A DNA stretch of 64,000 nt from contig NZ_CAMVTE010000003.1 in the NCBI RefSeq assembly GCF_947170395.1, positions 1-64,000 of the forward strand, written 5' to 3'. Positions 26,684 to 38,780 of this stretch are shown piece by piece; within the stretch, counting starts at the first letter, position 1; every line of letters starts with the position of its first letter. Source of the stretch: an uncultured Methanobrevibacter sp. GTDB taxonomy: Archaea > Methanobacteriota > Methanobacteria > Methanobacteriales > Methanobacteriaceae. The notes below the pieces were generated by a model that worked only from the letters and a program-made list of their open reading frames with translations, was not told where the DNA came from and searched no databases. The position numbers and the translations under genes were made by a program.

Positions 26684-26911
26684 TTATTCCACTTCAATAT
26701 TTTTAGCTTCTTCTTTACGAAGACAAATATCATACCCTTTTACACTCATTTCAATAGGATCACCTAAAGTTGCAACCTTTTTGACTTTGATTTCTGCGCC
26801 TTTAACGAATCCCATGCCCAATAAGTGTCTTCTTAAACCTACATCACCTGAATCATGGTATTTTACCAATGTGACTGTTTCACCAGGTTTTACATCATTT
26901 AAGGTTTTCAT
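26684..26911 (-). CDS. feoA: ferrous iron transport protein A
   Basis: This 75-residue SH3-like protein (VTLVKYHDSGDVGLRRHLLGMGFVKGAEI, then GDPIEMSVKGYDICLRKEEAKNIEV) supports FeoB in Fe(II) uptake. The start at 26911 is set by GGTGATATT; the track start is 12 codons early. FeoA is encoded downstream of feoB with its own promoter flanked by two palindromes. Confidence 0.88.
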   Translation of the reverse strand: MKTLNDVKPGETVTLVKYHDSGDVGLRRHLLGMGFVKGAEIKVKKVATLGDPIEMSVKGYDICLRKEEAKNIEVE

Positions 26912-26936
26912 AATATCACCATATATTAAAAATAAA

Positions 26937-27010
26937 TTTTTAGGCATGCTAAAAATTATGTAATTAACATTATGTCAATACTCATATATAAATATTTAGT
27001 CATGACTAAA
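26937..27010 (-). promoter_or_regulatory. feoA promoter with flanking metal-box palindromes
   Basis: The perfect palindrome TTTAGTCATGACTAAA (26995-27010), a TATA box (TTTATATATG on the reverse strand, 26983-26993) and TTTTTAGGCATGCTAAAAA (26937-26955, a palindrome apart from one extra G) follow in order toward feoA. The second site falls at the predicted transcription start. The layout operator-TATA-operator is shared with feoB and both RNA candidates, although these two boxes differ from the TTAGG..CCTAA consensus. Confidence 0.6.
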
Positions 27011-27067: not shown

Positions 27068-29122
27068 CTATCCGAATCCTGCTAAAAGACCAATGTTGTA
27101 TACAAGGAATGATACAATGTAAGCAGTGACCAATGTTATTGCAGACATTATCAAAGGCCATTTGAAACCGTTGGTTTCCTGTTTGATTGCACCTATTGCT
27201 GCGAAACATGGGATGTAGAGAAGTGTGAACACCATGAATGCAAATGAAGATAATGGAGTGAATAAATCATGAACCATTGCATTCATTCCAGCTTCGTCAT
27301 CCTCTTCAACACCAGCCAATGCACCGAATGTGGATACAACGACTTCTTTTGCAACCAAACCTGTGAGAATTGCAATACCCGCTTGCCATACGCCGAAACC
27401 GAGCGGTGCAAATATTGGTGAAATAGCAGTACCTATCATTCCTAAAACACTGTCGGCGGATCCGTATTCAACACCGAACGGCAAAATACTTAAAATCCAA
27501 ATGACGATAGATGCACCGAGAATAATGGTTCCCGCTTTTCTAAGGAATCCTTTGGTTTTCTCCCAGGTATGCAATAACACACCTTTTACAGATGGTATTT
27601 TATATGTTGGAAGTTCCATAACAAATGGAGCTGACATTCCCTTAAACATTGTTCTTTTAAGAATCGCAGCTACAATTAAAGCAACGATAATACCAATTAC
27701 ATACATTGAAGTTGTTACAAGAGACTGTTGGGTTACAACAATCGGTCCGAGTACAAATACAGGAATTGCTGCGAAAAACACAGCTGTAAACATGGAATAA
27801 ATAGGCATTCTTGCAGTACAGGACATGAAAGGAATGAGCATCATTGCAAGAATACGGTCTGATTCATTTTCCATTGTCCTTGTTGCCATGATTGCAGGCA
27901 CACCACATCCGAATCCTAAAATCATTGGAATGAATGCCTTACCGTGAAGACCTACAAGCTTGTGCATGATGATATCCAATGTAAATGCTGCTCTTGCCAA
28001 GTATCCGCTGTCTTCCAAAATACTTAATAACAGGAACATGATGATAATCTGAGGCAAGAATACAAGTACTCCACCTACACCACCAATGAGCCCATTACAA
28101 ACAAATGAAGCTAATGTCGGATCAGAAATTGCTGTTTCCGCCCATTCAGATAACATTCCAAATCCTACATCAATTGCATCACAGAACGGTGCTGAAATTG
28201 TGAATGTCAACTGGAACAATAAGAATATTACAAATAAGAATATAAATGGTGCTAAAAGCCTATTGGTTACAATCTTATCTATTTTATCAGTAGTTGTTTC
28301 TTTTTCTACAGCAGGCCTTTTGACAGCTTCAGCCATCAATCCGCCAATAAATGCATATCTTGCATTAGCAATAACTTCTTCTGCACCTTCTTTATAAACA
28401 TCATGAAGGTGTTTTGCTACTTTATCGACTTCAATCATAATTTTAGAACCATTGCTGGATTTTTGAACTTTTTCTATTACGATTGAATCTTTCTCTAATA
28501 ATTTGACTGCAGTCCAGACTGACGGAACGTCCAATAAATTTTTATCCTTTTCTATTTCTGCTTGAATTTCAGACAAATGACCTTTGATGTCATTTCCGTA
28601 GGACAATTTTTCACTGGAATCAACCGGTTTTTTGGATTGCTTTTCGACGGTTGTCAATAATTCGTCAAAACCTTCTTTGGTTTTTGCGTTTACTTCAACA
28701 ACCGGAAATCCTAAAAGTTCACTCATTAAATTTATATCTATTATATGATCCTTTTTCTTTGCAAAATCATTCATGTTGAGAGCCATTACCAAATTGGCAC
28801 CGAGCTCCATCATTTGAACTGTTAAATACAAGTTACGTTCTAAATTAGCAGCATCAACTACATTAATAATCACATCAGAGTCATCATCCACAATGAAATC
28901 CCTTGAAACGATTTCTTCCATAGAATGAGCACTTAATGCATAATTACCCGGCAAGTCCACAACGTCATATTCATAGCTGCCATGCTTGAAACTACCTTCT
29001 GCCCTTTCAACAGTTTTTCCAGGCCAGTTTCCTACATGTTGGCGCATCCCGGTTAATTGATTGAATACAGTAGTTTTCCCTACATTAGGGTTTCCTGCTA
29101 ATCCTACAATTAATTTTGTCAT
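27068..29122 (-). CDS. feoB: ferrous iron transporter B (GTPase-permease)
   Basis: An N-terminal G domain ([11 protein letters not shown] at residues 11-21, [22 protein letters not shown]) is followed by the GDI helical domain to about residue 270. A membrane part with two Gate motifs follows ([12 protein letters not shown] is the first; the second lies near [12 protein letters not shown]). It imports Fe(II) across the membrane. The start is ATG with GGGAGAA. Length (684 aa) is normal. It has its own promoter with iron-box-like palindromes and is transcribed away from the first small-RNA candidate. Confidence 0.92.
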
Positions 29123-29218: not shown

Positions 29219-29286
29219 ATTAGGTTAACCTAAACATGAATATTATTTTAAATTTTATATTATTTAAAGATTTAGGCATACCAAAT
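29219..29286 (-). promoter_or_regulatory. feoB promoter with iron-box-like palindromes
   Basis: Reading toward feoB: an imperfect box TTTAGGCATACCAAAT (29271-29286), an AT-rich TATA region (AATATAAAATTTAAAA reversed, about 29247-29262), and the perfect palindrome TTAGGTTAACCTAA (29220-29233) at the expected start site. The palindrome matches the inner part of the IdeR/DtxR iron-box consensus. The leader would be about 110 nt. Confidence 0.6.
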
Positions 29287-29362: not shown

Positions 29363-29450
29363 TTTAGGTGTGCCTAAAAATTTAGAAACATTTATATACT
29401 ATGACAACCAACTTTAATACAAGTGACATATATTTAGGCACGCCTAAATA
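29363..29450 (+). promoter_or_regulatory. promoter A of the small-RNA candidate: operator-TATA-operator
   Basis: TTTAGGTGTGCCTAAA (29363-29378), the TATA element ACATTTATATA (29388-29398) and TATTTAGGCACGCCTAAATA (29431-29450) are arranged so that the second operator lies just after the predicted start (about 29420). A 32-nt stretch across the TATA box (29373-29404) is identical in promoter B at 38.7 kb. Confidence 0.7.
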
Positions 29451-29639
29451 TTTCACTTCAACAAAACATATTATTAGTCAATAATAATACAATCTCCAAA
29501 ACAAAACACACATATTAAATTAGCTTTCACAATTTTCTAATTTAATATCGGAAAATTATTCTGCCAAAAAATTTTCCAAAAAAACAATTCAGGTGTTTAT
29601 AACTCTCTAAAAAGCATAAACACCTAAATCTCTCTTTTT
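29420..29639 (+). ncRNA. candidate iron-responsive small RNA, copy A
   Basis: A predicted transcript of about 220 nt holds three hairpins. Hairpin I is ATATTAAATTAG/CTAATTTAATAT (29512-29523 with 29537-29548, 12 perfect pairs). Hairpin II is GGAAAATT/AATTTTCC (29550-29557 with 29570-29577). The terminator hairpin is AGGTGTTTAT/ATAAACACCT (29591-29600 with 29616-29625), followed by a T tract. No ATG-led frame is shared with copy B, so it appears non-coding. AATCTCC (29491-29497) and the terminator loop (ACTCTCT) keep C/U-rich single strands able to pair with Shine-Dalgarno sites. Existence and role are inferred. Confidence 0.6.
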
Positions 29640-38077: not shown

Positions 38078-38191
38078 TTAGTGGCAGTTACATCCAAAAA
38101 AGAAACACCATAATTTTTTTAAAATGCTTTTTTTCTCTTTGGATTCCTCTTTGATTTCGCAGCATTTTGCTTTTTTTACATCGTTTGCCAT
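38078..38191 (-). CDS. 37-residue cysteine-rich peptide under an iron-box promoter
   Basis: MANDVKKAKCCEIKEESKEK opens a 37-aa frame that ends LWCFFFGCNCH. There are five cysteines (CC, C, CxC) in a short basic helix followed by an aromatic, hydrophobic end that could dip into the membrane. ATG 38191 has ACGGTGAT at ideal spacing. The longer 67-aa frame of the track begins at TTG inside a leader hairpin and is unlikely. Upstream lie a leader of about 200 nt and an operator-TATA-operator promoter like those of feoB and the small RNAs. Function unknown; a metal-handling or FeoC-like role is only a guess. Confidence 0.6.
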   Translation of the reverse strand: MANDVKKAKCCEIKEESKEKKSILKKLWCFFFGCNCH

Positions 38192-38224
38192 TAAAATCAC
38201 CGTTTTTAAATGAATAAGATAGGT

Positions 38225-38255
38225 GAAATTAAATATGGATTTCATATTTAATTTC
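38225..38255 (-). promoter_or_regulatory. 13-bp perfect leader hairpin before the cysteine-rich peptide
   Basis: GAAATTAAATATG and CATATTTAATTTC pair perfectly around a 5-nt loop. The hairpin ends about 20 nt before the ribosome-binding site of the 37-aa gene, inside its predicted leader. It might control RNA stability or access of the ribosome. Confidence 0.5.
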
Positions 38256-38365
38256 GTGAGAGTAGTTATATGCTTCACCAAATCAGAAAGAGAGTTAAAC
38301 TAATTCAGTGAATCGGAGTAAGTAATTTGGTTTAACCAAAATACATCAGCAATCAAAATTAGATT

Positions 38366-38439
38366 TTTAGGTAGACCTAATTTTTATCACTATACATAAT
38401 GTTATTGAAGGAAGTATATAAATGTTTAGGTTAACCTAA
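38366..38439 (-). promoter_or_regulatory. promoter of the cysteine-rich peptide: operator-TATA-operator
   Basis: Toward the peptide gene: TTTAGGTTAACCTAAA (38424-38439, perfect palindrome), TATA (TTTATATA reversed, 38415-38422), and TTTTTAGGTAGACCTAATTTTT (centred 38375) just past the predicted start near 38390. The order and spacing copy those of the two small-RNA promoters. Confidence 0.6.
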
Positions 38440-38447
38440 AAAAGGGA

Positions 38448-38474
38448 GGTGTTTAACATATTCTGTTAAACACC
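38448..38474 (-). terminator. hairpin terminator downstream of small-RNA copy B
   Basis: GGTGTTTAACA and TGTTAAACACC pair perfectly (11 bp, 5-nt loop), and on the reverse strand CCTCCCTTTTTT follows. This gives a second stop for transcripts from promoter B before the next promoter begins. Its stem start GGTGTTTA copies that of the small-RNA terminator. Confidence 0.55.
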
Positions 38475-38510: not shown

Positions 38511-38720
38511 AAAAAAATAATGGAGAGGTGTTTATCTGGAGAGTCATAAACACCGAAATTCGTTTTGGAAAATTTTTGGCAGATAAGTTTCCCATATTAA
38601 ATTAGAAAATTGTGAAAAGCTAATTTAATATCTATATTTTTGGAGATTGTATTATTATCGACTAATAATGTATGTTTTGTTTGAAGTGAATATTTAGGTA
38701 AACCTAAATATATGACACTT
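38511..38720 (-). ncRNA. candidate iron-responsive small RNA, copy B
   Basis: On the reverse strand this region is about 84% identical to copy A by hand alignment. Hairpin I (38620-38631 with 38594-38605, 12 perfect pairs) is fully kept. Hairpin II keeps GGAAA/TTTCC with one mismatch further in. The terminator GGTGTTTAT/ATAAACACC (38546-38554 with 38527-38535) has a shorter loop, GACTCTCCAG, then TCTCCATTATTTTTTT. The single-stranded AATCTCCAAAA is identical in both copies. A frame from ATG in copy B (MGNLSAKNF) is not present in copy A. It lies tail-to-head with the peptide promoter. Confidence 0.6.
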
Positions 38721-38780
38721 GTATTAAAGTTTGTCATCATAGTATATAAATGTTTCTAAATTTTTAGGTATGCCTAAATT
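38691..38780 (-). promoter_or_regulatory. promoter B of the small-RNA candidate: operator-TATA-operator
   Basis: TTTTTAGGTATGCCTAAATT (38761-38780), TATATAAA (38743-38750) and the palindrome TATTTAGGTAAACCTAAATA (38691-38710) repeat the order of promoter A. The central bases of the operators differ between copies while the arms TTTAGG/CCTAAA stay, as expected for real binding sites. Confidence 0.7.

Follow-up and report, generated by a model that had tools for sequence, protein, structure and literature searches.

An uncatalogued multi-copy small RNA of gut and rumen methanogens that probably saves iron under scarcity

We analyzed a 64,000-nt stretch of a contig from an uncultured Methanobrevibacter species, referred to here as the window. 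It contains feoA and feoB, a duplicated noncoding RNA gene with a terminator, which is strongly supported by the analyses below, and a related module that precedes a short open reading frame (ORF). Within the window, copy A of the RNA (29420 to 29639, plus strand) aligned to positions 38526 to 38778 of the minus strand with 84% identity (E = 6.6e-73), and the two paralogous copies of about 84% identity that a first-pass annotation of this DNA had reported were both found in place. The features are the following.

26684 to 26947: feoA (Pfam FeoA, 6.2e-21)
27068 to 29122, minus: feoB, the divergent neighbor of copy A (Pfam FeoB_N, 1.4e-62), with an operator of its own (core AGGTTAACCT at 29222 to 29231)
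29363 to 29378, unstranded: operator 1 (DtxR type, TTTAGGTGTGCCTAAA) of copy A, placed ahead of the TATA box, from sequence comparison
29391 to 29399, plus: TATA box of copy A (TTTATATAC), with the predicted transcription start about 25 nt downstream, near 29418 to 29421
29420 to 29639, plus: small RNA (sRNA) copy A, about 220 nt with a predicted 5' end, from homology, folding, and covariation
29431 to 29450, unstranded: operator 2 (DtxR type, TATTTAGGCACGCCTAAATA) of copy A, just within the transcript and doubling as the first hairpin
29469 to 29489, plus: hairpin 2 (AUUAUUA-GUC-AAUAAUAAU), from folding and covariation
29487 to 29501, plus: linker AUACAAUCUCCAAAA, unpaired and nearly invariant, proposed as the seed (anti-Shine-Dalgarno), from invariant alignment columns
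29512 to 29548, plus: 12-bp stem with conserved loop CUUUCACAAUUUUC; 5 of 12 pairs compensatory, 99.2% of cells paired
29550 to 29577, plus: hairpin GGAAAA...UUUUCC with conserved loop motif UCUGCCAAA, from folding and the alignment
29592 to 29639, plus: terminator hairpin (GGUGUUUA...UAAACACC) with a CUCUC loop and U-rich tail, from folding and covariation
38078 to 38440, minus: module C, comprising an operator (38425 to 38440), a TATA box (38414 to 38422), an operator (38367 to 38380), an sRNA-like leader (38391 to 38276), and an ORF
38191 to 38078, minus: the 37-aa Cys/Lys-rich ORF of module C (MANDVKKAKCC...FFFGCNCH)
38512 to 38721, minus: sRNA copy B, from homology to copy A, folding, covariance model, and promoter
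38763 to 38778 and 38693 to 38708, minus: operators of copy B, with its TATA box at 38742 to 38750
38638 to 38650, 38594 to 38631, and 38527 to 38554, minus: linker, 12-bp stem, and terminator of copy B

The 12-bp stem, described earlier as fully kept, is identical in the two copies (29512 to 29523 and 29537 to 29548 in copy A). The first-pass annotation correctly recognized a duplication but counted only two copies. A partial extra module lies in the window at 38391 to 38276, within the leader of the 37-aa ORF, and a covariance model recovered a more distant, unlinked copy on another contig (G000 C20:10511-10713, equivalent to L140 7515-7708, minus strand), which keeps operator 2 and has neither a TATA box nor operator 1. 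That copy is placed after a small membrane-protein gene and may be a version derived from a 3'UTR. At 38448 to 38474 of the minus strand, immediately upstream of module C, a GGTGTTTAA...TTAAACACC hairpin is followed by CTCCCTTTTTT; this could be a second terminator or a remnant behind copy B.

The predicted fold of copy A has an energy of -39.7 kcal/mol, compared with -13.6 +/- 3.0 kcal/mol for shuffled sequences (z = -8.7), and the fold of copy B has a z of -3.5. Where three hairpins had been annotated we found five (the operator hairpin, a short hairpin, the 12-bp stem, a GGAAA...UUUCC hairpin, and the terminator), although the last was correctly taken for a terminator with a T tract: its stem (29592 to 29599 with 29617 to 29624) is followed by TCTCTCTTTTT. 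RNAalifold, applied to an alignment of 51 sequences (with a median of 71% identity between pairs in the chosen set), predicted 27 pairs, 8 of them with double-sided change. A 34-pair structure was kept paired in 97.7% of cells, and compensatory changes occurred at 10 of its pairs, compared with 3.8 in shuffles (0/500) and 2 to 4 in slid controls; the 12-bp stem supplied five of these pairs. The highest conservation was in unpaired stretches, namely, AUACAAUCUCCAAAA, CUUUUCACAAUUUUC, UCUGCCAAA, and the CUCUCC(UC) loop of the terminator. The computed unpaired probability was 0.91 to 0.98 for the linker core; across copies A and B, it was 0.86 to 0.98 for the first three stretches and 0.72 to 0.96 for the terminator loop.

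Could the element encode a small peptide, with the RNA as its mRNA? The paralogous module C does precede an ORF, but copy A has no ATG, the longest ORF per copy has a median length of 18 aa, and the copies have no frame in common, in agreement with the earlier statement that no coding frame is shared. Among the homologues, the changes follow base pairs. We consider a peptide-coding function to have next to no probability, and a micropeptide was ruled out by the absence of a shared frame. The noncoding reading, that of a duplicated regulatory RNA, has strong support from homologues, compensatory base pairs, and a kept promoter and terminator. The Rfam 15 covariance models, at their gathering cut-offs, found only two tRNAs in the window and no match to the element. 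No family passed the gathering cut-off at six related loci either, with sub-threshold matches that were miRNA-like or due to chance; a known Rfam family was thus rejected for the window and for the related loci.

A family-wide blastn search matched the element at E < 1e-10 in 62 of 67 congeneric genomes (G000 and G036 to G101), with 1 to 6 copies each. Among the remaining five, all 66 to 95% complete, two had a weak match and three had none. The covariance-model search over Methanobrevibacter genomes that the first-pass annotation had suggested (model R1) recovered homologues in 24 of 25 and 7 of 7 genus members tested, none in 33 genomes of other genera in the family, and none in 16 more distant genomes. 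The named records carrying the RNA are all Methanobrevibacter, hence archaeal, and include M. thaueri; we take the RNA-bearing group to be the smithii-millerae-thaueri lineage, which GTDB separates from M. ruminantium. In two genomes of other genera, short blastn matches (E of ∼1e-6) to the operator-hairpin part were found (G019 C1:469412-469459 and G114 C1:246011-246066); these are possibly diverged relatives that the covariance model rejects.

Because almost all genomes of the genus have homologues, the pairs covary, and the promoter is conserved, the element is beyond chance. Among 95 distinct copies, operator 1 was present in 90, the TATA box in 93, and operator 2 in 94, while the shuffled upstream regions used as a control for these 95 copies had operator 1 in 0 and a TATA box in 9. 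The complete layout of a DtxR box, a TATA box, and a second DtxR box near +10 was found in 89 copies; it is the arrangement, a TATA promoter between two DtxR-like palindromes, that had been described for copy A. This retention of promoter and structure, together with copy positions that are syntenic across species, argues against a repeat, a mobile element, or conserved terminator repeats with no regulatory role, a reading that the 1 to 6 copies per genome and the tandem arrays of sRNA copies in smithii-like genomes might otherwise favor. We regard it as very improbable. A search of a viral contig collection gave no match to the element, which led us to reject a viral origin.

The promoter, then, carries putative sites of an iron-dependent repressor. 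In a relative (G043; 2.0 of 2.27 Mb scanned), there are 12 instances of the perfect box TTTAGGNNNNCCTAAA, compared with ∼1 expected from a Markov control. Six of these boxes form three pairs, 68 to 71 bp apart, at sRNA promoters, and a fourth pair, with one mismatch in each box, belongs to module C. The rest lie near an ABC transporter, a methyltransferase-like gene, a DUF6110 gene, and an ABC ATPase and at two spots without a called gene. Boxes with one mismatch are found at feoB, at cbiM, and at a DtxR-FeoA gene (with DtxR DNA-binding, dimerization, and FeoA domains). A box upstream of both the DtxR-FeoA gene and feoB is the pattern expected of such an iron regulon. Because the sRNA boxes are almost invariant and a like box precedes feoB and the DtxR-FeoA regulator gene, comparative genomics lends good support to the iron control that had been proposed for the RNA, and repression of its transcription by a DtxR-type iron sensor is supported, not proven. 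Elsewhere in the same relative (C1:1172033, locus L218), a perfect DtxR box and a TATA box stand ahead of a possible 20-aa ORF (MIIGIENLKEKIKDEEKSDD) with a strong Shine-Dalgarno sequence.

The neighborhoods of the copies differ. Copy A is divergent from feoB in the window and in relatives, and another site of the RNA is EF-1beta/DUF4012. Other copies lie downstream of gatE, beyond which several genomes have a gene resembling thioredoxin reductase or glutathione peroxidase (names assigned by visual inspection of the protein sequence). At the gatE loci L141, L142, L145 to L148, and L152 to L154, the copies are on the same strand as gatE and mostly 90 to 220 bp away (870 to 980 bp in two genomes). 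In G038, G039, and G040, copies lie beside rubrerythrin; one to three copies are convergent with the adjoining rubrerythrin gene at L156 5752-7273, L040 5016-6301, and L046 4699-5522. The 37-aa ORF of module C is kept from the window to a smithii-like genome (MGVRPSCCE...FFFGCCKNKK), with the pattern CC...FFFGC(N/C), and its protein has no Pfam or NCBIfam match. The module C leader includes a very conserved hairpin (CUCACGAAAUUAAAUAUG...CAUAUUUAAUUUCACCUAU). With copies adjoining feoB and the 37-aa ORF, and with the leader of that ORF being a paralogue of the RNA that shares its fold, the RNA might activate or stabilize either iron-uptake mRNAs (feo and ABC transporters) or the transcript encoding the 37-aa Cys-rich protein and not repress iron users. 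However, the neighborhood varies, other copies being beside rubrerythrin or behind gatE, and feoB is absent from the top predicted targets. We find such activation improbable.

Targets were predicted by comparing each conserved unpaired motif with the start regions of 2,030 predicted G043 genes, the starts of which were called mechanically. Perfect complements of at least 11 nt to the linker that span the Shine-Dalgarno sequence were found at fdhA, fwdF, hypC, mmp3, and birA. Mmp3 is part of the MCR activation complex, which is rich in Fe-S (PMC12176620). The list also includes birA, which is not an iron gene. Lower-ranked linker matches included rubredoxin, rubrerythrin, a ferredoxin, and hdrA, and the target list of the terminator loop was headed by hdrB. 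Genes with long complements to the linker were in no more than mild excess over permutations, with 5 at 11 nt, against 2.0 (P = 0.095), and 3 at 12 nt, against 0.6 (P = 0.025). Fe-S genes (CxxCxxC) ranked higher for the linker than for its CUCC-preserving permutations (AUC, 0.60; P of ∼0.05), as they did for the terminator loop (AUC, 0.60; P of ∼0.05), these being overlapping anti-Shine-Dalgarno tests that are not independent.

The stronger argument rests on comparison between genomes. The extended site TTTTGGAG is present at fdhA in 13 of 15 and at fwdF in 11 of 11 sRNA-bearing genomes, compared with 0 of 11 and 0 of 8 in sister genera without the RNA. At fdhA, the leader reads TTTTGGAGATT in the same 13 of 15 and the extension is absent from all 11 genomes without the RNA, although the GGAGATT within the leader is kept by these sister genera as well. 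The two remaining RNA-bearing genomes, both smithii-like, have ATTTGGAG, also written as ATTTGGAGATT, and copy 2 of the smithii-like RNA carries CUCCAAAU as its linker alongside the ATTTGGAG leader. The exact TTTTGGAGAT was found at the fwdF start in 11 of 11 fully listed genus members and in 0 of 8 sister-genus starts, matched by coordinate. It is important to note that the Fisher values for fdhA and fwdF (∼2e-5 and 1e-5) overstate the evidence because they ignore shared ancestry; since one clade is compared with its sisters, the contrast may go back to one change in an ancestor, and fdhA and fwdF belong to the same gene cluster. For hypC, the extended site was found in only 3 of 11 listed genomes, and hypC was dropped as a general target. 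We also considered whether the UCUGCC loop could be antisense to AUGGCAGAU start codons. Its matches include an MvhG-like gene and rubrerythrin but also ATP synthase, MoaC, TrpRS, and a transporter, and its G043 targets had no Fe-S bias; because of these mixed matches and the missing bias, we do not rely on this pairing.

Our preferred reading, which we hold to be probable, is a family of multi-copy, trans-acting sRNAs, confined to one Methanobrevibacter lineage and under DtxR/IdeR-type iron control, that spare iron by pairing with the Shine-Dalgarno sequences of iron-enzyme mRNAs. Computation establishes the RNA family together with its structure, operators, and terminator. With iron present, DtxR would occupy both operators, one on either side of the TATA box and start site, and transcription would be blocked. 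We infer that the RNA accumulates without iron, as a product of 200 to 220 nt ending at the intrinsic terminator. Its hairpins would leave C-containing motifs unpaired and exposed; foremost among these are the linker AUACAAUCUCCAAAA and the terminator loop CUCUCC. Their pairing partners would be the Shine-Dalgarno and start regions of mRNAs that encode iron-rich enzymes acting in formate, hydrogen, and CO2 metabolism. The predicted target set comprises formate dehydrogenase fdhA, the formylmethanofuran dehydrogenase polyferredoxin fwdF, and, in some of the species, hypC, a hydrogenase maturation gene, with hdrA, hdrB, rubrerythrin, and rubredoxin as further possible targets. The sign of the regulation is presumed to be repression: pairing would halt translation of the target, and iron would be spared. 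An iron-controlled sRNA might instead have a protein or other RNAs as its main target, serving as a sponge or scaffold, with the CUUUUCACAAUUUUC loop and the UCUGCC motif as protein-binding sites. Both are conserved as strongly as the linker, UCUGCC has no Fe-S target signal, and multiple copies would suit a titrating decoy. The linker and terminator loop, however, are of an anti-Shine-Dalgarno type, and the fdhA and fwdF matches of the linker are clade specific; we judge the sponge or scaffold role rather unlikely.

Iron-sparing sRNAs arose separately in several bacterial groups. A close likeness to the RNA described here is one of working principle, with no relatedness of sequence apparent at the level of Rfam: in Staphylococcus, IsrR has two Fur boxes flanking its start, and its C-rich single strands pair with Shine-Dalgarno sequences (PMC9410917). 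The two RNAs share two metal-repressor boxes, one just past the start, as well as stem-loops, an intrinsic terminator, single-stranded C-rich anti-Shine-Dalgarno motifs, and an AT-rich host, and fdhA, a proven target of IsrR, is a predicted target here (PMC9410917). IsrR is bacterial and controlled by Fur, whereas the present RNA is archaeal with DtxR boxes, and its C motifs (CUCC and CUCUCC) are shorter than the C runs of IsrR. RyhB and PrrF1-PrrF2 are likewise iron repressed, sometimes duplicated, and directed at iron-enzyme mRNAs (PMC9410917). Those RNAs depend on Fur and Hfq; here, we find duplication, an archaeal TATA promoter, DtxR boxes, and no Rfam match, and the RyhB/PrrF-like logic that was originally suggested is backed by complementarity to the fdhA and fwdF start regions that is specific but not conclusive. 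FsrA of Bacillus subtilis, also iron repressed, pairs a C-rich motif with Shine-Dalgarno sequences and has the small protein partners FbpA/B/C (PMC9410917). The 37-aa Lys/Cys-rich ORF beside the RNA, with operators of the same kind, resembles this arrangement, although FsrA and Fbp are under Fur control and the 37-aa protein matches no known family. Among methanogens, sRNA154 of Methanosarcina mazei is a trans-acting RNA that responds to nutrient shortage and has an anti-RBS loop, but the nutrient is nitrogen instead of iron, the lineage is another, and several targets are stabilized (PMC5867862).

No archaeal iron-sparing sRNA was found in Rfam or in the literature searched, the coverage of which lacks many subscription papers and preprints; the archaeal sRNAs in that literature concern nitrogen, phosphate, zinc, and oxidative stress, and the iron-sparing RNAs in it are only bacterial. 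It is possible, though we advance it tentatively, that this is the first archaeal iron-sparing sRNA: DtxR controlled, multi-copy, shutting off the translation of iron-rich methanogenesis enzymes (Fdh, Fwd, and possibly Hdr/Mvh) in the methanogens that dominate gut and rumen, and partnered with a co-regulated 37-aa Cys-rich protein. If true, archaeal RNA biology would gain a rare system in which the copies are duplicated, the operators are clear, and targets have been predicted, and the reading yields a short list of testable base pairs. As the family occurs in smithii-like human-gut species and in rumen species, it would tie the iron supply of the gut to methane-making enzymes. In human-gut metatranscriptomes, M. 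smithii is reported to be highly active (PMC4555090).

A second site, TTTTGGAGATTATAAAATG, identical to the fdhA leader, recurs in several genomes, sometimes twice within ∼300 bp (G036 C2:164654; G045 C8:7947 and 8214; G057 C1:1229 and 1549; G042 C1:225949 and 761807; G043 C1:1681206).
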